From NCBI GenBank assembly GCA_946479535.1, contig CAMLGP010000068.1:1-9096 (forward strand): a stretch of 9,096 nt of DNA, written 5' to 3'. The stretch comes from an uncultured Bacteroidota bacterium (GTDB lineage Bacteria; Bacteroidota; Bacteroidia; Chitinophagales; Chitinophagaceae). The translations under genes were made by a program, and so were the position numbers. Under the pieces are notes generated by a model, which saw only the letters and a program-made list of their open reading frames with translations, was not told the DNA's origin and searched no databases. Of the stretch, positions 2,032 to 8,017 are shown piece after piece; within the stretch, counting starts at the first letter, position 1, and each line of letters starts with the position of its first letter.

Positions 2032-3477
2032 TTATTCACCCGGCACATCATCTCTTTTCTTCCAGGTCTTATGCTTTGCTCCATCCATCTTAACGATCTT
2101 CGGAGTAAACTTTCCAACGATATCCACCAGCTGGTGCTGACTTTTCATGACAACCTCGATATCCTTGTAAGCAAAAGGAGATTCATCCAGTCCACCACCA
2201 AGCAATTTTACTCCATGCTTTTGTAGTTCGTCCTTCATTTGCTTATCAGTTACCGACTGCATCGCCCTGGTACGACTCATTTTTCTACCCGCACCATGGG
2301 AAGCAGAGTTAACAGCGGCTGATTCACCTTTTCCTTTTACAATGAACCCGGGAGCTGTCATAGATCCGGGAATAACCCCCAATACATCCTTGCCGGCAGG
2401 AGTTGCCCCTTTACGATGAACAATTACATCCTTTCCTTCCCATTTTTCTTTCCATGCAAAATTGTGATGGTTTTCAACCATCTTTACTGGTTTACGACCT
2501 AACTGTTTTGCAATTTTAGCATGAATGATGTGGTGGCAGGCAGAAGCGTAATCACCTGCAAGGTTCATAGCCAGCCAGTATTCCATTCCTTCTTCCTCAT
2601 CTAAAGTAAGCCATGCCAGGTTCTTCGCATCTTGTGGCAAACGTCTCTTGCTGATCGCCAGCTTAGTATAATAGTTGGCAATATTTGCACCCAATGCCCT
2701 GGAACCAGAATGAGACAACAGTCCTGTATACTTTCCGGCCTCAATACCTAATTTCTCATCTTTTTCAGCAATCTCTACCATACCAAATTCCACAAAGTGA
2801 TTACCCGAACCGGATGAACCTAATTGTTTCCAGGCACGGCCGTGCAGTCCTTTCAGTAAAGGCAATTGTTTAAACAACTCGCTTTCCATTACTTCATCAT
2901 CTTCCGCCTGTTTGAACAGAGCACCACTACCGAAAAGTGTTGCCTCATTGATCTCTCTGGCAAAATAACCTTCCTTTTGGATCAGCTCTTTTGGATCAAT
3001 ATCAAAAAGGCTCAAACACATTCTACAACCAATATCCACTCCAACACCATAAGGAATAACGGCATTTTCAGTGGCCAGTACACCACCAATAGGTAGACCA
3101 TACCCACTATGGGCATCCGGCATTAATGCACCGGCCACACTAATAGGCAACTTAGCCGCCTGGTACATCTGGTGCATGGCGCCCTCTTCTATATGCTCCT
3201 GTCCAAATACATTGAATTGAATTCCTGATTGGTTCAACGAAATGTTCTGTCCCTCCAGTTCTTCTTTTGGAATCAACTGTTTTGCAATCAAACCCAGGGC
3301 TTCATCATTGGCATAGTCGTCAGGAGCCTGTAGAACTCCTTTCAGGATAGCAAGTGCTTCTTCCTTTGAGTGATGCTTAAAATTCTTCTCCATTACATTC
3401 ATGGCAATGCTAATCACCGGTCCTTCAGGGAACCCGATAGCTCTTAGCTCTTTTCCTTCTATTTTTAATTTACTCAT
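2032..3477 (-). CDS. rtcB: RNA-splicing ligase RtcB
   Basis: GTP- and Mn-dependent RNA ligase that joins 2',3'-cyclic phosphate or 3'-phosphate ends to 5'-OH ends, as in tRNA splicing and repair of endonuclease-cleaved RNA. The protein has 481 residues, a normal length. Active-site motifs are all present: M119-P-D-A-H-S-G-Y-G, G145-V-D-I-G-C151 (metal ligands D148 and C151), G225-N-H227-F-V-E, L254-S-H256-S-G-S-R, V334-E-N-H-H-N, H354-R-K-G-A-T-P-A-G, and S393-H394-G-A-G-R, whose histidine is the one guanylylated in the family. It should therefore be active. The ATG at 3477 has only a weak AAAGGA just before it. An intrinsic terminator separates it from the slipin gene upstream, so it may depend on read-through or on its own promoter. 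No archease gene is visible in the window. Confidence 0.97.
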   Translation of the reverse strand: MSKLKIEGKELRAIGFPEGPVISIAMNVMEKNFKHHSKEEALAILKGVLQAPDDYANDEALGLIAKQLIPKEELEGQNISLNQSGIQFNVFGQEHIEEGAMHQMYQAAKLPISVAGALMPDAHSGYGLPIGGVLATENAVIPYGVGVDIGCRMCLSLFDIDPKELIQKEGYFAREINEATLFGSGALFKQAEDDEVMESELFKQLPLLKGLHGRAWKQLGSSGSGNHFVEFGMVEIAEKDEKLGIEAGKYTGLLSHSGSRALGANIANYYTKLAISKRRLPQDAKNLAWLTLDEEEGMEYWLAMNLAGDYASACHHIIHAKIAKQLGRKPVKMVENHHNFAWKEKWEGKDVIVHRKGATPAGKDVLGVIPGSMTAPGFIVKGKGESAAVNSASHGAGRKMSRTRAMQSVTDKQMKDELQKHGVKLLGGGLDESPFAYKDIEVVMKSQHQLVDIVGKFTPKIVKMDGAKHKTWKKRDDVPGE

Positions 3478-3553: not shown

Positions 3554-4654
3554 TTATTTCTGAGCTACAAATATTTGTTTCAACTGCTCAATCAGCATGC
3601 CGTTACCACTTACGCTAATGTTGTTGATCTTCTCTGCAATCTTTTCAACATATTCCATTTCCTTCAGTTTCCAAAGCATTGCATTTTCTTCCATCAGTTT
3701 GGCAGTATTCAGCAAACTACGGGTGCTGGCAGTTTCCTCACGACGCATGATAGTGTTTGCCTGAGCTTTTTTCTCGGCAATCAGTACCTGATTCATGATC
3801 TCTTTCACATCACCCGGCAGGATGATATCACGGATACCGAAGTCCTTCACTTCCACACCCAGGGCCTCGGCCTTGTCTTTCACGCTCTGCAATACGTATG
3901 GAACAATGTGCTCCTTCTTTTCCAGTAATTCATCAAAATTGTAGCCGGCTACATACTGGCGCAATGCCAGCTGAAAAGCCACATAAAGCTGCTTATCATA
4001 CTCTTTATTCTGCAAAACCGCCTTTTCAATGTCAGCAACACGGTATTGTGCCCAGGCATTGATACGCAGTCCAGCCTTGTCTCTGGTCAGAATTTCCTGA
4101 CCATTAATTTCCAGCTGCTGCTGACGCATGTCAACTCTCGCTACGTGAACAGCAATATTGTTCTTCCACCAGTAGTATACACCACTTTCCAGCACTCTTT
4201 CATATTTACCATCGATGAACAATACTGCCTTTTCATAATTCTCAACACTCACGCTGCGAACAAACGGAGCTACAAGCTTATTCATCAGGGTTGCACGGTC
4301 CAGCTTTTCAGTGATTTCCAGCTTGCTGATATCAGCCCGTACAAATTCATGCTGTATAATGCTTTTCCAGAAAGCATAACGGCCTGCAGTCAAAACCTCT
4401 TTCAGCAAACCATTTTCGTAATGAAGCACAATTTCATTGTCCTTCACTTCCACAACATGCAGGATATCAGCCAGGGCTTTATCCTGAAGCAGGATGTTGA
4501 GTTCAACTGGTGCAACAAATGGTTTAGTGATATCAAATCCCCAAACTTTTGCATTTTTCCAGAACCAGTATTTTCCTGCCATCAGCATACGCTGATATTC
4601 GCCATTTTTAAATACCAGACCAACCTGGTAGGCGTTAATTTTTACAATTCTCAT
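3554..4654 (-). CDS. SPFH/band 7 domain (slipin-like) protein with triplicated N-terminal module
   Basis: A 366-residue protein. The C-terminal two thirds look like an SPFH/band 7 domain: V172-A-R-V-D-M-R, an I186/L189-T-R-D-K-A-G-L-R-I-N-A-W-A-Q-Y-R-V stretch, V268/G273-I-R-D-I-I-L-P, then a charged helix with A293-E-K-K-A-Q-A-N typical of slipins and stomatins. Such proteins oligomerise into scaffolds. Unlike classical slipins it has no N-terminal membrane segment. Instead a module with pattern G-x-Y-x-R-x-L-x-x-G-x-Y-x-x-W-K occurs three times (about 11-34, 74-98 and 142-165). The start is well supported: AGGAGG lies four bases before the ATG. Slipin genes beside rtcB are, to my knowledge, a recurring arrangement. 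I infer a scaffold for RNA repair; there is no catalytic motif. Confidence 0.85.
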   Translation of the reverse strand: MRIVKINAYQVGLVFKNGEYQRMLMAGKYWFWKNAKVWGFDITKPFVAPVELNILLQDKALADILHVVEVKDNEIVLHYENGLLKEVLTAGRYAFWKSIIQHEFVRADISKLEITEKLDRATLMNKLVAPFVRSVSVENYEKAVLFIDGKYERVLESGVYYWWKNNIAVHVARVDMRQQQLEINGQEILTRDKAGLRINAWAQYRVADIEKAVLQNKEYDKQLYVAFQLALRQYVAGYNFDELLEKKEHIVPYVLQSVKDKAEALGVEVKDFGIRDIILPGDVKEIMNQVLIAEKKAQANTIMRREETASTRSLLNTAKLMEENAMLWKLKEMEYVEKIAEKINNISVSGNGMLIEQLKQIFVAQK

Positions 4655-4683
4655 ATTTCCTCCTTCTTTCCTTTTGCGGAAAG
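4655..4683 (-). promoter_or_regulatory. Strong Shine-Dalgarno with adjacent hairpin before slipin
   Basis: Minus-strand AGGAGG (complement of 4659-4664) is four bases from the slipin ATG. A perfect 6-bp hairpin, CTTTCC (4666-4671) with GGAAAG (4678-4683), sits directly upstream. Strong Shine-Dalgarno sites are uncommon in Bacteroidota, so this one may be under special translational control. Confidence 0.65.
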
Positions 4684-4949
4684 CTTTAGCGTTTAAATAA
4701 TTTAATGAATAAAGCCAGTTTTATACACCATCTGCTAGTAACGGAGTCTGATTTTCAATAATGTTCGCCAGATCAGTTCATCAGTCTCTCCCTCATTACA
4801 TTTTGTAATGACATCTGACTACTGAAGTGAATAACTTCCACTATTTGAGATCAGTCTTCAGGTTAGTACCGGATTGCTGCCTGTTCTGTCCTGAGACATT
4901 CAAGCAGCCGGTAATAAACCTGGCTTTATTTTCTGGTCACCATTTTTTA
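4684..4949 (-). other. Gene-free, structured leader between permuted tRNAs and slipin
   Basis: No credible ORF. Two clear hairpins are present: TCATTAC/GTAATGA (4793-4799 with 4805-4811) and GAAGT/ACTTC (4824-4828 with 4834-4838), each with a five-base loop. Neither is followed by a T run, so they are not terminators. I see no confident promoter. The stretch may be the structured 5' leader of the slipin mRNA, or a processing spacer after the permuted tRNAs. Confidence 0.45.
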
Positions 4950-4965
4950 GGAAGCGGTGGACTTC

Positions 4966-5048
4966 AACCTCTACATTATCAGTGTAGTGCTCTACCGTTG
5001 AGCTATCCAGTAGATCCTTACGGAATCTGGAGCGGGAGTTGAACCCGC
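4966..5048 (-). tRNA. Circularly permuted tRNA-Ile(GAU)-like gene
   Basis: On the minus strand the 3' half comes first: T stem GCGGG (5048-5044), loop TTCAACT, CCCGC, then acceptor TCCAG (5031-5027). A short spacer capped by TCC-GTAA-GGA follows. Then comes the 5' half: acceptor CTGGA (5010-5006), TA, D arm GCTC-AACGGTA-GAGC, anticodon arm CTACA-CTGATAA-TGTAG with anticodon GAU (4980-4978), and variable loop AGGTT (4970-4966). Joining the outer ends in the variable loop gives a cloverleaf, although the acceptor stem has only 5 clear base pairs. Read in the normal direction, the 5' half lacks any proper T arm. The outer flanks can pair (ACTT 5052-5049 with AAGT 4964-4961; AAGC 5056-5053 with GCTT 4955-4952), which could bring the ends together. 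It may also be a decoy or regulatory RNA rather than a working tRNA. Confidence 0.7.
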
Positions 5049-5049
5049 A

Positions 5050-5122
5050 AGTGCTTTGCTCTACCACTGAGCTACCGGGCTAATGCCCGGACGGGAGTTG
5101 AACCCATGACCCAAGCGTTATG
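5050..5122 (-). tRNA. Circularly permuted tRNA gene with CAU anticodon (Met or Ile2 type)
   Basis: On the minus strand the 3' half comes first: CATAA (5122-5118), anticodon stem CGCTT, variable loop GGGTC, T arm ATGGG-TTCAACT-CCCGT (5107-5091), acceptor CCGGGC (5090-5085). After ATTA the 5' half follows: acceptor GCCCGG (5080-5075), TA, D arm GCTC-AGTGGTA-GAGC, A, then AAGCACT (5056-5050). Joining ...ACT to CAT... rebuilds the classic anticodon loop CTCATAA closed by AAGC/GCTT. The acceptor is a perfect 6-bp stem with a 4-base loop; position 1/72 would be A/A. Read as a normal gene, the 5' half runs into a T arm with no anticodon arm and a non-complementary acceptor. CCGC (5126-5123) and GCGG (5048-5045) outside the ends can pair. 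The break lies in the anticodon loop, as in a nuclease-nicked tRNA. Confidence 0.75.
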
Positions 5123-5171
5123 GCGGACATGTCCCTGCGAGAACAATAGCATACAGATAGCAACTGCTTCT

Positions 5172-5246
5172 GCACTGCCGTGCTTCTTTGAAACACTGAC
5201 CTGGTTTGTATTTCACAGATCCACATCCGTCTTGCCGTTAAGCAAG
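5172..5246 (-). ncRNA. Run of contiguous hairpins, possible degenerate tRNA-like RNA
   Basis: In the 180-bp gap after the PcfJ gene, three perfect or G-U stems lie end to end with no spacer. They are CTTGC/GCAAG (5231-5235 with 5242-5246), ACGGAT/ATCTGT on the minus strand (5225-5230 with 5215-5220), and GAAATAC/GTGTTTC (5208-5214 with 5190-5196). A fourth, GCAC/GTGC (5172-5175 with 5180-5183), follows. The order resembles D, anticodon and T arms without an acceptor stem, and the first loop holds an AACGG like a D loop. There is no TTCRA T loop, so a tRNA call is not justified. A GGACATGTCC palindrome (5125-5134) separates this from the permuted tRNA. Confidence 0.35.
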
Positions 5247-5302
5247 CTCTTTATTGATATTTCTACCTAAGTAATTCGTATAAATCCATTCATAGGCATT
5301 CC

Positions 5303-6556
5303 TTATAAATACGGGTTAACTGACAAATCATTCTTCTTTGCCCATAACTCAAGATGTTTTTTAACTTCATCTGATATTTTCCCATTCATTCTGCTCTTGG
5401 CCTGAACTATTCTTTTTGAAAAAAGATTTACCTCAACTGTTGCCATTCGTTCCATTAATACCCCTTGGATATATCTGCGGAAAGAAAAGATCGCAGAGCG
5501 TCCGGTAAAGCAATAATGAATATAGGTTCCTACACAATGTTTCATGACTCTACCTTCGTCTGCAAGCAGCCTGGACCCTGTTAATTCCTCCAATTGTATA
5601 TATTCATCCTTCTTTTCCACTCTGTACTCTTTTATTCCGCAGGAATTCCACGATTGATTTCCTTTCATTAGAACGACCTGTTTATGCCATTCGTCACTCT
5701 GCCTTAACAGAGATTGTAAGGTCCTTCCTTTCAAAGAATACTCGGGATTCACTCGTTTGGAGTCCCTCACGTGATCAATCAGTTGCGTTACGTGTTCATG
5801 GCTAAACATTTCCCCATTGATCAGAATTCGTATAAATGCTTCCCAAAAATCTTCCTGCTCGTAAGGCTTTGATCCAATCCAGGAATACGCTATTCTCTCA
5901 GCCAACCGATTGTCCCCATTCATACCTTTTACCTGTGCCCAGCGTAATGCTTCACTGATATTGAATACAGCGGGAGCCTGCAAAAAGTAATGAGCCATTT
6001 TCTGGGTAAACGGCAGAGGCATATTTGGAAGCTCTCTTGCCTTCTTACCTGTTCCAATATGAATAAACCAGAGTATATATTCAGATTTATCCTTTTCATA
6101 AAATGCCTTATACAGAAACTCCGGTACTTTATATTGACAAAAGAGATAAAGAGCCAGTTCATGAACCTGTGTAACGCCTCTCTTTGAAACTGGTTCCCAG
6201 CAAAAAATATCTTTTATCCATTGCTTCCTTAACTTAAACATATTGAATACAGCCTGGATATAATCTTCTCCTGACATCACTGATGAATATCTGTATAAAT
6301 ACAGGAACACATTCTTCAGCACTGCTCTTTCCTCCCCCTTAACTGGCTTGCCTGAAAAGCATTCATTTATTTTCCAAATCCTGCGGTCACAGAAATAAGA
6401 GCTTAAATCCTTTTCCAGGTATAACTGGAGTATGATCTCATCAAATTTCTTGAACCGCTTTCTGGAAAATTTTAATGCATTAGTAATGATCTCCTCCTTT
6501 TCCTGAGCTGCCAGCAATTGTTCGTGTTTTATAGCTTTACGTGTCTTCATAATCAT
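5303..6556 (-). CDS. PcfJ-domain protein
   Basis: A 417-residue protein, probably cytoplasmic, with no signal peptide or membrane segment. The first 300 residues are helical, lysine- and aromatic-rich, and I recognise no domain there. The C-terminal part matches the PcfJ-like family: L322-E-E-L, L330/L331-A-D-E-G335-R-V-M338-K-H340-C341-V-G-T-Y, then S354-A-I-F-S-F-R, M371-A-T-V-E-V and I383-V-Q-A-K-S-R-M-N391. PcfJ was named from an enterococcal conjugative plasmid; its biochemical role is, to my knowledge, unsettled. Two starts are possible, ATG 6556 and ATG 6550; the second gives M-K-T-R-K. Neither has a Shine-Dalgarno. It sits 98 bases downstream of the YkuK-like gene on the same strand, so co-transcription is likely. 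The invariant-looking H-C-V motif could be catalytic or metal-binding, but this is a guess. Confidence 0.75.
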   Translation of the reverse strand: MIMKTRKAIKHEQLLAAQEKEEIITNALKFSRKRFKKFDEIILQLYLEKDLSSYFCDRRIWKINECFSGKPVKGEERAVLKNVFLYLYRYSSVMSGEDYIQAVFNMFKLRKQWIKDIFCWEPVSKRGVTQVHELALYLFCQYKVPEFLYKAFYEKDKSEYILWFIHIGTGKKARELPNMPLPFTQKMAHYFLQAPAVFNISEALRWAQVKGMNGDNRLAERIAYSWIGSKPYEQEDFWEAFIRILINGEMFSHEHVTQLIDHVRDSKRVNPEYSLKGRTLQSLLRQSDEWHKQVVLMKGNQSWNSCGIKEYRVEKKDEYIQLEELTGSRLLADEGRVMKHCVGTYIHYCFTGRSAIFSFRRYIQGVLMERMATVEVNLFSKRIVQAKSRMNGKISDEVKKHLELWAKKNDLSVNPYL

Positions 6557-6654: not shown

Positions 6655-7143
6655 TTATTGAACTACTTTATTTGCACAACTGGAACTGGCAAAGGCCTCT
6701 GGTTTGGCTTTGAAAGCAAACCCCATCCCAACTATATACCCCATTGCTTCTTTCAAAGCATCATTGCTTTTGAAACTGGGGTTAGTGTTAATGTCAGCGT
6801 GCACTTCTAAGTCTACAGCGTACCGTGAAAAGGTATTGCTTAAGGCATAAGCCACTTCAATACTTTTTCCAACTTCCGTCAGCATCCGCTGTTTGATACT
6901 CATCTTTTGCCGGGTAATTTCATTGTGTATGTACATGAATCCCCCTTTTCCCTTCCGGATGAATACAATAACAGTAGCGAACTCAGTGACCTTTCCTTTA
7001 ACCTGGCTATCGGTACCGATGCACACTTTCAAATCATGGCCCATTTCTCTTTCACGAGCCAATACGCTATCTACTTCATCGACAATAGATCCTTTGACAC
7101 ATTCACCAGATAATTTTCTCCAATTCTGCTGTTCTTGTTCCAT
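6655..7143 (-). CDS. YkuK-type ribonuclease H-like protein (DUF458)
   Basis: A 162-residue protein, the usual size for this family. It has the RNase H-like layout: a first strand with C41-I-G-T-D45-S-Q, strands F55-A-T-V-I-V-F-I and G68-F-M-Y-I-H-N-E, a helix with L88-T-E90-V, then L112-E-V-H-A-D117-I-N-T, and a C-terminal block A133-M-G-Y-I-V-G-M-G-F-A-F-K-A-K-P-E-A-F-A. D45, E90 and D117 are the likely metal-binding acids. The last motif reads S-S-C-A-N158-K, and an aspartate might be expected where N158 stands, so activity is uncertain. The ATG at 7143 is only 36 bases from the 3' end of the tRNA-Phe gene, so the message probably starts within or before the tRNA array and is released by tRNA processing. 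No Shine-Dalgarno; the leader is AT-rich. Confidence 0.8.
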   Translation of the reverse strand: MEQEQQNWRKLSGECVKGSIVDEVDSVLAREREMGHDLKVCIGTDSQVKGKVTEFATVIVFIRKGKGGFMYIHNEITRQKMSIKQRMLTEVGKSIEVAYALSNTFSRYAVDLEVHADINTNPSFKSNDALKEAMGYIVGMGFAFKAKPEAFASSSCANKVVQ

Positions 7144-7179
7144 TGTTTAAGTTTTAAACATTTAATTTTTGTCCTTGAG

Positions 7180-7252
7180 TGGTGCCCCGTGGAATCGAAC
7201 CACGATTCTCGGGATTTCACCCCGATGCTTAAATCCATTCAGCCAAAGCACC
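7180..7252 (-). tRNA. tRNA-Phe(GAA)
   Basis: Acceptor GGTGCTT pairs with GGGCACC (7181-7187), with discriminator A and no encoded CCA. D arm GCTG...AAGC, anticodon arm TCGGG-GTGAAAT-CCCGA with anticodon GAA, T arm CGTGG-TTCGATT-CCACG. Position 32 is G rather than a pyrimidine and the variable loop has four bases, both unusual. It is the last tRNA of the array, 36 bases before the YkuK-like gene. Confidence 0.85.
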
Positions 7253-7268
7253 ATTTGTTATACATCGG

Positions 7269-7358
7269 CGGAGAGTAAAGGAGTCGAACCTTTGTATCCG
7301 CCGAAGGCGGGCAGCCATAGCTTAGCAAGCCAGCACATTACCACTCTGTCAACTCTCC
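7269..7358 (-). tRNA. tRNA-Ser(GCT)
   Basis: Class II tRNA of 90 bases. Acceptor GGAGAGT/ACTCTCC, anticodon loop TTGCTAA (GCT), a long variable arm with the strong stem CCGCC-TTC-GGCGG, T arm AAAGG-TTCGACT-CCTTT, discriminator G. The first anticodon-stem pair (C27/T43) does not form. No encoded CCA. Confidence 0.9.
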
Positions 7359-7365
7359 CAATATG

Positions 7366-7408
7366 TTTCTTCATCTTCGTAGCACTCACATCTTTGCGGA
7401 TGAAGAAA
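7366..7408. repeat. 10-bp inverted repeat across the Ser-Asn tRNA spacer
   Basis: TTTCTTCATC (7366-7375) is the exact inverse of GATGAAGAAA (7399-7408). The second arm includes the acceptor and T-stem base of tRNA-Asn. In the transcript the spacer can therefore pair with the 3' strand of that acceptor in competition with its normal 5' strand. It may be a remnant of another tRNA 5' half. Confidence 0.6.
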
Positions 7409-7468
7409 GATTCGAACTTTCAGCCCTCCCCTTAACAAAGGGACGCTCTGCCGTTGAGCTATTCATCC
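7397..7468 (-). tRNA. tRNA-Asn(GTT)
   Basis: Canonical cloverleaf: acceptor GGATGAA/TTCATCC, TA, D arm GCTC-AACGGCA-GAGC, anticodon arm TCCCT-TTGTTAA-GGGGA (GTT), variable GGGCT, T arm GAAAG-TTCGAAT-CTTTC, discriminator G. Its acceptor and T arm are nearly identical to those of tRNA-Arg(TCT) at 7555-7627. Confidence 0.93.
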
Positions 7469-7471
7469 TGG

Positions 7472-7545
7472 TTGGCCCGGAGAGACTCGAACTCTCAACT
7501 CCCGGTGTAAAAGACCGGTACTCTCGCCAATTGAGTTACGAACCA
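7472..7545 (-). tRNA. tRNA-Lys(TTT)
   Basis: Acceptor TGGTTCG/CGGGCCA, TA, D stem ACTC/GAGT, anticodon arm CCGGT-CTTTTAC-ACCGG (TTT), variable GAGTT, T arm GAGAG-TTCGAGT-CTCTC, discriminator A. The first acceptor pair is U-A and the loop ends in C38. Only three bases separate it from tRNA-Asn. Confidence 0.9.
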
Positions 7546-7554
7546 ATTAACTGG

Positions 7555-7627
7555 CAGATGAAGAAAGATTCGAACTCTCAATCTTCCCGGTAGAAGCGGG
7601 ATGTTTTCTCCATTAAACTATTCATCT
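7555..7627 (-). tRNA. tRNA-Arg(TCT)
   Basis: Acceptor AGATGAA/TTCATCT, D arm GTTT...AAAC, anticodon arm TCCCG-CTTCTAC-CGGGA (TCT), variable AGATT, T arm GAGAG-TTCGAAT-CTTTC with one G-U pair, discriminator G. The acceptor starts with A-U, which is uncommon. No encoded CCA. Confidence 0.9.
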
Positions 7628-7632
7628 GTATG

Positions 7633-7705
7633 CAGGCTTAACAGGATTTGAACCTATATCTCTTCATTCGTAGTGAAGTATTCTCATCCATTGAACTATA
7701 AGCCT
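7633..7705 (-). tRNA. tRNA-Arg(ACG)
   Basis: Acceptor AGGCTTA/TAAGCCT, TA, D stem GTTC/GAAT with a nine-base loop, anticodon arm CTTCA-CTACGAA-TGAAG (ACG, normally edited to ICG by TadA), four-base variable loop, T arm ATAGG-TTCAAAT-CCTGT, discriminator G. Confidence 0.9.
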
Positions 7706-7719
7706 TCCTTATCATCACG

Positions 7720-7791
7720 GTTGACTCCGGGAATCGAACCCTGTTATCCACAGTCACAATGTGACGCTTTACCAAATAAGCTAAAGCCAAC
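7720..7791 (-). tRNA. tRNA-His(GTG)
   Basis: 5' G of GTTGGCT (7791) can pair with C73 (7720), the G-1:C73 pair typical of tRNA-His. D stem GCTT/AAGC, anticodon arm TCACA-TTGTGAC-TGTGG (GTG), T loop TTCGATT with stem CAGGG/CCCGG (one A-G mismatch, or a shorter stem if G66 belongs to the acceptor). Confidence 0.88.
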
Positions 7792-7796
7792 AATTG

Positions 7797-7867
7797 ATAT
7801 TGGAGTTGGATTCGAACCAACATCTTCAGAGTCAGATTCTGAAATGCTACCATTGCACCATCCAACA
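7797..7867 (-). tRNA. tRNA-Gln(CTG)
   Basis: Acceptor TGTTGGA/TCCAATA with U1-A72 and one G-U pair, D arm GTGC-AATGGTA-GCAT, anticodon arm TCAGA-ATCTGAC-TCTGA (CTG), four-base variable loop, T arm GTTGG-TTCGAAT-CCAAC. The discriminator is U, whereas tRNA-Gln usually has G. One base separates it from tRNA-Glu. Confidence 0.87.
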
Positions 7868-7868
7868 G

Positions 7869-7941
7869 TAATCTGTACGGTACTCGAACTCATATTTCAA
7901 GAATGAAAATCTTACGTCCTTGCCGGTTAGACGAACAGACT
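7869..7941 (-). tRNA. tRNA-Glu(TTC) with degenerate T stem
   Basis: Acceptor AGTCTGT/ACAGATT, typical Glu D arm GTCT-AACCGGCA-(A)GGAC, anticodon arm TAAGA-TTTTCAT-TCTTG (TTC). The T arm ATGAG-TTCGAGT-ACCGT has mismatches G53-A61 and A52-C62 next to the loop, so the nearly universal G53-C61 pair is lost. It may be a decaying or non-translational tRNA. Confidence 0.75.
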
Positions 7942-7944
7942 ATG

Positions 7945-8017
7945 TATAGCAGGCAGGACTCGAACCTGCATCCTCTCCGTTCCAGGCGGAGTATCCAGCC
8001 AATTGGAATGCTGCTAT
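7945..8017 (-). tRNA. tRNA-Pro(TGG)-like, first gene of the array
   Basis: Acceptor ATAGCAG/CTGCTAT, D stem with three good pairs (TCC/GGA), anticodon arm CTCCG-CCTGGAA-CGGAG, variable AGGAT, T arm GCAGG-TTCGAGT-CCTGC, discriminator A. The loop gives anticodon TGG but with C33 instead of the near-invariant U33, and position 8 is C instead of U. Function in translation is doubtful. Confidence 0.75.

Follow-up and report, generated by a model that had tools for sequence, protein, structure and literature searches.

The 9,096-nt stretch of DNA analysed here (the window) carries on its minus strand, at positions 5050..5122, a circularly permuted tRNA fold that comparative sequence analysis shows to be real. 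This fold, module 1, is the first of two tandem tRNA-like modules within a predicted structured RNA of ~540 nt (4708..5247, minus strand), whose ends are predictions and whose extent follows conserved blocks and helices P1 to P9. The minus-strand order is ten tRNA genes, an RNase H-like gene, a PcfJ-like gene, the structured RNA, a slipin gene and the gene for the RNA ligase RtcB. We tentatively take the element to be a structured non-coding RNA whose permuted modules would act in trans as tRNA mimics, bringing tRNA-handling enzymes to the slipin and working with it and the neighbouring RtcB, a reading that in our judgement falls a little short of probable.

The permuted fold of module 1

Read along the minus strand, module 1 has the form CATAAC-GCTT-GGGTC-(T arm)-CCGGGC-ATTA-GCCCGG-TA-(D arm)-A-AAGC-ACT, i.e., the 3' strand of the anticodon stem (5113-5116), the V region (5108-5112), the T arm (5091-5107), an acceptor hairpin with loop ATTA (5075-5090), the D arm (5058-5072) and the 5' strand of the anticodon stem (5053-5056). 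The original prediction, of a tRNA(CAU) gene with its halves in reverse order, had the parts right: a 6-bp acceptor stem, a 5-bp T stem, a 4-bp D stem and the pairing AAGC/GCTT are all present, and joining the outer ends in the window gives a CTCATAA loop with both stems restored. It had also held that the anticodon arm is missing in normal order, and the tRNA model RF00005 gives just 24.4 bits here (cut-off 29) with no anticodon arm aligned. ARAGORN calls no tRNA at module 1, although it detects nine elsewhere in the window; on these two results a linear tRNA at this place was rejected. Our covariance model of module 1 (R1) scores the window copy at 76.2 bits.

Relatives were the best 80 of 142 stretches encoding a slipin relative, making 81 regions with the window. 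A pattern parser, for which T, acceptor and D pairing were obligatory, detected permuted modules upstream of the slipin in 75 of the 81 (two modules in 43, three in one, one in 31, none in six), and R1 later detected module 1 in three of the six regions without a parsed module. The acceptor stems of the 120 parsed modules had 7 bp in 47 cases, 6 bp in 46, 5 bp in 17 and 4 bp in 10, and acceptor loops measured 3-6 nt in 106. Pairing between the outer ends was tested in 59 of the 75 first modules, the other 16, with a local anticodon arm of at least 5 bp, having been set aside. The case that could have spoken against the permuted fold was retention of the halves with loss of their cross-pairing; we found instead that an anticodon stem closes the module from outside in 57 of the 59, through 20 pair combinations, some of which differ by just one added pair (examples are ACAG/CTGT, ATAGA/TCTAT, ACAAC/GTTGT, ACGTA/TACGT and, in the window, AAGC/GCTT). 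The partner-swap control gave a mean of 26.2 and a maximum of 37 in 2000 swaps, a high baseline because ACAG/CTGT is common. Swap controls, here and below, leave relatedness in, and their baselines are high since some motifs are common; neither this test nor those of the pseudoknot and of helix P9 made any selection on the pairing tested.

In alignment A1, comprising 59 first modules chosen for outside pairing (a set overlapping the 59 of the swap test without being identical to it), the covariation score was 0.648 (shuffled, 0.213; slid, no more than 0.172), and each of the five pairs of the anticodon stem varies on both sides. Pairing is seen in 92.6% of its cells, a figure biased by selection, since the parser accepted only modules paired in the T, acceptor and D stems and A1 only those paired from outside. 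Unguided RNAalifold recovered 19 of the 21 pairs of module 1. The compensatory changes for which the original prediction had looked to relatives are seen in the acceptor and the anticodon stem alike.

The claims about the ends and the identity of the gene fared less well. Circular permutation stands, with the opening of the fold in the anticodon stem, but the suggestion that the gene's ends mimic a nicked tRNA conflicts with conserved RNA extending ~125 nt upstream and ~340 nt downstream of module 1. Only 13 of 57 relatives have CAT as the joined triplet and 16 of 57 a U at position 33, which speaks against a tRNA(CAU) gene; so does the acceptor stem, which has 7 bp only in the 47 of 120 modules given above and 6 bp in module 1 of the window. 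CAT is the commonest joined triplet, apparently as part of a recurrent CCATAA motif.

That the locus is a circularly permuted tRNA(CAU) gene, processed into a decoding tRNA, is thus extremely improbable. The reversed halves, the restoration of both stems and the joined CTCATAA of the window would suit such a gene, whereas the unconserved loop, acceptor stems ranging from 4 to 7 bp, flanks that are conserved structured RNA and not leader or trailer, and a second module in tandem would not. Module 1 resembles the permuted tRNA genes of algae and archaea, as described in the part of PMC3978253 cited here, in its 3'-half-first order, adjacent acceptor strands and short intervening sequence; unlike them it has short acceptor stems, structured flanks and no conserved anticodon. 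Module 1 is not a tRNA gene, because its joined "CAU" loop is not conserved, and nothing suggests its maturation to a tRNA; we conclude, as far as sequence comparison carries, that it imitates a tRNA body and has no decoding loop.

Barely credible is the reading of module 1 as a remnant of the neighbouring tRNA array, made of the 3' half of one tRNA and, after it, the 5' half of the adjoining one. Tandem linear tRNAs do reach 68.7 bits with R1 and the array lies ~2 kb upstream, and we may speculate that permuted tRNA mimics could have arisen from tandem tRNA genes by such a route. As an account of the present sequence, however, it is ruled out by the swap control (57/59 against a maximum of 37), and it does not sit with acceptor and anticodon strands that covary with each other, with the 3-6 nt acceptor loops of 106 of the 120 modules or with the conservation of the surrounding structure.

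Module 2 and the domains around the modules

Directly after module 1 comes a second permuted module (4971..5048, minus strand), recognised by an RF00005 match, by the parser and by RNAalifold. It consists of a T arm (5032-5048), an acceptor hairpin (5006-5031), a D arm (4989-5003) and a complete anticodon arm with loop CTGATAA (4971-4987); the chain enters and leaves it at the variable region. The RF00005 match (4949-5006, 34.3 bits, cut-off 29) is partial and omits the acceptor stem. Local anticodon hairpins, taken almost all from the last module of a region, had a 7-nt loop in 51 of 55 cases (6-8 nt were allowed), and in these 51 loops position 32 is a pyrimidine in 48, position 33 is U in 38, position 37 is a purine in 50 and position 38 is A in 47, with 22 different triplets. 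In one relative (L039:2999-3190) three modules stand in tandem; two are of the outside-closed form, and the last carries a complete anticodon arm. A different D arm (TGGCGAAACTGGTAGACGC), which we take to be Leu/Ser-like, was seen in module 2 of L008, L014, L020 and L038; copies may mimic different tRNA classes.

A kept loop signature with a varying triplet could mean that the modules, and in particular module 2 with its intact anticodon arm, are a decoy that absorbs an anticodon nuclease and spares the real tRNAs. RtcB and the tRNA array as neighbours would accord with this, and Salmonella YrlA, a bacterial Y RNA taken up below, has been suggested as a competitive inhibitor of an anticodon nuclease, although, in the part of that paper cited here, it was not cut by the nuclease studied (PMC7790460). 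The varied triplets point to no single nuclease, a decoy would need a high copy number, and the elaborate 5' and 3' domains would be unnecessary to it; we regard this explanation as quite unlikely.

Those two domains enlarge the RNA well beyond the modules, and a whole-region alignment of relatives shows conservation on both sides of module 1. The 5' domain begins with hairpin P1 (5231..5247, minus strand; GCUUGC..GCAAG), found by RNAalifold of 31 sequences and in the minimum free energy (MFE) structure of the window. P2 is a long-range helix between 5222..5229 (CGGATGTG) and 5124..5131 (CATGTCCG) of the minus strand, present in the window MFE and covarying in alignment A2 (columns 59-66 with 160-168). 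It encloses P3 (5180..5196, minus strand; GUGUUUC-AAA-GAAGCAC; RNAalifold of A2 and window MFE) and P4 (5148..5179, minus strand; GGCAGUGCAG..CUGUAUGCU), which the region alignment and RNAalifold make the most conserved part of the domain. A2 runs from P1 to the pseudoknot hairpin in 31 of 35 passing sequences (L043, L052, L063 and L064 were left out); RNAalifold predicts 72 pairs for it, 55 with compensatory changes, in a fold that contains P1, P2 with P3 and P4 inside, both modules and the hairpin after the modules. The window segment 4850-5257 has a more stable predicted fold than each of its 100 shuffles (z -4.9), and the anticodon stem of module 1 is not part of its MFE structure.

The hairpin after the modules takes part in a predicted H-type pseudoknot (4938..4965, minus strand), in which stem GAAG/CTTC is combined with pairing of loop CACC to GGTG, as read by eye from the window. 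Its loop pairs with a downstream segment in 49 of 56 relatives, the window not among them, against a swap mean of 25.8 and maximum of 33, and several of the seven unpaired cases look like wrong hairpins. The combinations include CACC/GGTG, CATC/GATG, CAGC/GCTG, CGCC/GGCG, CTTC/GAAG and others. Regions without a parsed hairpin were dropped, leaving 56 of 81 for this test and 52 of 81 for P9, and alignment A4 of the pseudoknot (49/52 sequences), which is ungapped, was left out of the counts as spacer lengths differ.

Helix P9 forms between the segment that follows the pseudoknot and another lying 25-120 nt before the slipin. In the window it has 11 bp, between 4920..4930 (AATAAAGCCAG) and 4708..4718 (CTGGCTTTATT) of the minus strand, the latter, found by a helix search between segments, ending 53 nt ahead of the slipin start; it lengthens to 19 bp in L004 and 22 bp in L018. 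In 48 of 52 loci, the window included, the best helix reaches a score of 9 or more, against a mean of 25.7 and a maximum of 32 in 40 swaps, where the score is that of the best helix between two segments and not of a single register. A fixed register appears in alignment A5 (columns 41-47 with 341-350), which holds 30 of 36 sequences and yields 35 predicted pairs, 29 of them compensatory. These include a long interrupted helix inside P9, several pairs of which are broken in a quarter of the sequences; the window fold and A5 also place a hairpin within the 3' domain (4876..4908, minus strand; GCTGCTTG..CAGGCAGC). As predicted structures, both modules, with the outside-closed stem of the first and the anticodon arm of the second, have been conserved with compensatory changes, and so have the 5' domain, the pseudoknot and the long-range 3' helix.

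Gene neighbourhood and proposed role

Module 1 sits in the gap between the stop of the PcfJ-like gene (5303) and the start of the slipin gene (4654). All the annotated genes of the locus lie on the minus strand: the slipin (SPFH/Band 7; 3554..4654, 366 aa; PF01145, 106.7 bits), RtcB (2032..3477, 481 aa; PF01139, 271.1 bits), the PcfJ-like protein (5303..6556, 417 aa; PF14284, 37.5 bits), the RNase H-like protein (6655..7143, 162 aa; PF04308, 127.9 bits) and the array of ten ordinary tRNA genes (7179..8017), nine of them called by ARAGORN and the tenth (7945-8017) by RF00005 with 48.4 bits. The array reads Phe, Ser, Asn, Lys, Arg, Arg, His, Gln and Glu, plus the tenth, which is seen by Rfam only. 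The nearest relatives of the slipin in a protein scan are from Chitinophagaceae metagenome-assembled genomes (MAGs), at 83% identity, and the window is accordingly taken to derive from a Chitinophagaceae-like bacterium.

The slipin is the constant neighbour in relatives, but the 80 loci had been retrieved with slipin as the query. Where the upstream sequence extends 6.5 kb or more (63 related loci), at least three same-strand tRNA genes occur in 33 and the RNase H-like gene in 41; RtcB follows in 40 of the 72 that extend 5.5 kb or more downstream. In many of the loci counted, RtcB and the array were not found beside the slipin. The tRNA sets of the related loci resemble that of the window, number up to 13 genes and often comprise Pro, Asp, Gln, His, Arg(acg), Ile, Met, Lys, Asn and Phe, and several tRNAs of such arrays are classic targets of anticodon nucleases. 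These optional neighbours (tRNA genes, RNase H-like protein and RtcB) are compatible with a role in tRNA repair.

The gene preceding the RNA is PcfJ-like in the window, L016, L038 and L042. Many of 20 loci inspected have an AAA ATPase in its place, between the RNase H-like gene and the RNA; in the two run on Pfam it is PF00004 (L004:5267-6343 and L036:5066-6223). PcfJ-like proteins adjoin both module kinds, slipin-linked in the window, L016, L038 and L042 and Ro60-linked in L124 (2043-3314; PF14284, 58.5 bits). Just before the RNA, upstream of P1, some loci (e.g., L001, L037 and L038) have the motif AGTTCTTTA(A/G)AATATTG, which presumably resembles the boxA of rRNA antitermination. The pattern [CT]TCTTT[AG] occurs in 21 of 74 regions before the RNA, against 2.5 (maximum 7) in mononucleotide shuffles; the boxA-like motif was not seen in the window.

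Upstream of the slipin and on its strand, R1 gives at least 54 bits in 76 of the 81 sources, 59 of which are its training sequences. In L067 the best R1 match (53.1 bits, 91 nt) falls on a pair of linear tRNAs, and L071, L080, L072 and L066 reach 42.2, 34.3, 25.2 and 20.9 bits. At E 0.001, R1 matches in all 296 of 296 Bacteroidota genomes, and since it also picks up linear tRNAs in tandem (reaching 68.7 bits, mostly at 90-125 nt) it is unfit for a census. We give as a sample 20 places, chosen among the R1 matches listed mostly by short length and inspected over ~10-16 kb each; other short matches (e.g., in G199, G074 and G120) fall outside it. Ten of the 20 lie upstream of a slipin on the same strand (L125, L127 and L133-L140), nine beside Ro60 (L121-L124, L126 and L129-L132), none beside both, and the last, L128, is a tandem tRNA-Thr pair with an R1 match of 83 nt. 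By eye, the distant slipin-linked copies mostly retain a related 5' domain, the second module and the pseudoknot. A covariance model of the 5' domain (R2) matches in four of the 296 genomes, always beside slipin; it is too narrow, because it recognises two of the ten distant slipin-linked loci and misses eight. Viral contigs held no exact match to the 5'-domain consensus pattern. Several Bacteroidota lineages thus have the RNA in this position, ahead of slipin and on its strand.

This strict position speaks for our main rival explanation, a cis-acting leader of the slipin (and RtcB) mRNA, in which an enzyme or nuclease binding or cutting the tRNA mimics would report tRNA damage and alter downstream translation or stability. 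In the cases counted (the 76 R1 sources and 10 of 10 distant slipin-linked places) the RNA is always upstream on the same strand, and its predicted 3' end falls just 25-120 nt before the slipin start. The promoter motif TAnnTTTG is missing between RNA and slipin (0/75; 4.7 in mononucleotide shuffles), as it is from the 165 nt before the RNA (0/74; 4.2 in such shuffles), and a sigma-70 scan of 4600-5400 gave no promoter-like sites; two terminator-like sites in the same interval are both on the other strand. With no such motif before the RNA or before the slipin, a free RNA would need processing or another promoter. A leader explains the strict position and the missing promoter motifs as well as a free RNA or better. 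Against it, an architecture of 540 nt, closed by a long-range helix of its own, has the look of a free-standing RNA, and the same kind of module acts in trans in the published YrlA. On balance we consider the leader unlikely, though a serious contender.

The trans-acting tRNA mimic is a conjecture from a module shared with YrlA and an exchanged neighbour, slipin where YrlA has Ro60. It supposes that the RNA would be made and stable; that its tRNA-like modules would be read as tRNA and bind tRNA-handling proteins; that its own 5' and 3' domains would stand in for the Y stem and hold, instead of Ro60, the slipin or a factor bound to it; and that the locus would serve tRNA replacement and repair under stress. 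The second step has its parallel in YrlA, for which PNPase is the published partner and DusA and TruB are the modifying enzymes.

Comparison with YrlA and other known RNAs

Permutation of this kind was thought in the original prediction to be unprecedented in bacteria, which it is not: the module is of the YrlA type, and Rfam YrlA (RF02553) matches at 5139-5028 with 47.5 bits (E 2.4e-8; cut-off 69). YrlA is a bacterial Y RNA of 90-150 nt whose basal stem holds the Ro60 homologue Rsr, and its tRNA-like domain with D, T and acceptor arms has already been published (PMC8394870, in the part cited here); the permuted tRNA-like fold is not new in bacteria because YrlA has it. According to the passages cited here, YrlA is encoded near rtcB in Salmonella and others (PMC7790460, PMC8394870), and the Salmonella operon holding both responds to tRNA damage (PMC7790460). 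What the window RNA shares with YrlA is the permuted module: it has D, T and acceptor arms, and the chain comes in on the anticodon side. It differs in having two tandem modules, a 5' domain, a pseudoknot and a 3' domain in place of a supported Y stem, in its predicted length of ~540 nt and in its neighbour, slipin as opposed to Ro60.

The Y stem lacks support in that the Rfam alignment of the window includes three non-standard stem pairs and borrows the T stem of module 2, and the A2 consensus of 31 relatives pairs the would-be Y-stem segments otherwise, in P2 and T arm 2. The best YrlA matches of slipin-linked relatives are partial in 13 of 19, falling within about positions 17-92 of the model, and whole in six; their scores range from 31.1 to 47.4 bits, with none for L144 at E 0.01. 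The score itself does not separate the two kinds, because most of the Ro60-linked loci scanned also stay below 69 bits: across six, just two matches reach it, both in L121, the bests of L126, L129, L130 and L131 being 62.8, 37.4, 37.7 and 36.6, with none in L124 at E 0.001.

Ro60 (TROVE) was found in none of the seven window proteins scanned and went undetected in 28 of the 36 genomes of slipin loci; 33 of these 36 have module 1 at 54 bits or more, 26 without TROVE and seven with it. It was likewise undetected in 10 of 11 further genomes with the slipin-linked RNA and detected in 9 of 9 with the Ro60-linked kind, although many of the genomes are MAGs, which leaves the absence of Ro60 less than certain. 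R2 matches none of the nine Ro60-linked loci. Five of the eight Ro60 loci in the slipin-set genomes carry an R1 match of their own (29.9-70.2 bits), and in G093, the one of the 11 with TROVE, an R1 match lies 0.8 kb from Ro60; genomes with both partners thus tend to have separate RNAs. Upstream of the slipin in L067 (5960-6240) there are Ro60-like TROVE fragments, which may be the remains of a Ro60 gene or mark a change of partner.

A Y RNA of the ordinary YrlA kind, belonging to a Ro60 particle, would have the module topology seen here and could give the RF02553 score and E-value above, and RtcB occurs near slipin- and Ro60-linked kinds alike. It would not be expected to lack Ro60 in the window and in most of the genomes just counted, to measure ~540 nt with an unsupported Y stem, a second module, a pseudoknot and a 3' domain, or to leave Ro60 with its own R1 match in five of eight loci. 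Plain YrlA was rejected on the mostly undetected TROVE and the 0/9 result of R2, and we hold this reading to be very improbable. Taken as a whole, the RNA fails the features of a Y RNA: Ro60 link, Y stem, length and Rfam score.

A bolder form of the trans-acting tRNA mimic, possible in our view but held more loosely, is that the ~540-nt RNA founds a new class of large bacterial ribonucleoprotein, in which tandem permuted mimics, a pseudoknot and long-range closed 5' and 3' domains would dock tRNA-processing enzymes on a slipin membrane cage as a Y RNA docks PNPase on the Ro60 ring, running a tRNA-replacement and repair locus of Bacteroidota. In the accounts cited here, bacterial permuted tRNA mimics have been described with Ro60 only. 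A larger, slipin-tied form would show the mimic to be an exchangeable module, would give slipins a possible RNA partner, and would bring a reserve array of tRNA genes together with an RNA ligase and a membrane scaffold in a single testable locus.

Part of this setting has a counterpart in Anabaena, where a single repressor, TrcR, silences a 26-tRNA array together with rtcB, i.e., a reserve array and RtcB under one control, and where the paper's table includes a slipin gene with a fold change of 42.5; the term 'tRNA-like' is absent from its main text (PMC10272220, as far as cited here). A slipin-linked tRNA-mimic RNA had no description that we found in the open-licence literature, as judged by listings. 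In the window and the loci scanned, Rfam 15 gave just tRNA, YrlA, sub-threshold tmRNA and a group-II intron at 17.8 bits (cut-off 49). The candidate tmRNA (RF00023) was rejected at 8.4 and 11.9 bits in the window and 8.4-18.9 bits for the best overall (cut-off 47). The window RNA is like tmRNA in joining a tRNA-like part and a pseudoknot within one large RNA; it departs from tmRNA in that the tRNA-like parts are permuted and lie inside the RNA. As with the window RNA, covariation defines OLE and other large ornate bacterial RNAs, which are found beside a membrane-protein gene; they have no Rfam match at the window RNA. Set beside these systems, what looks new is the large RNA built around the module, and not the permuted module itself.
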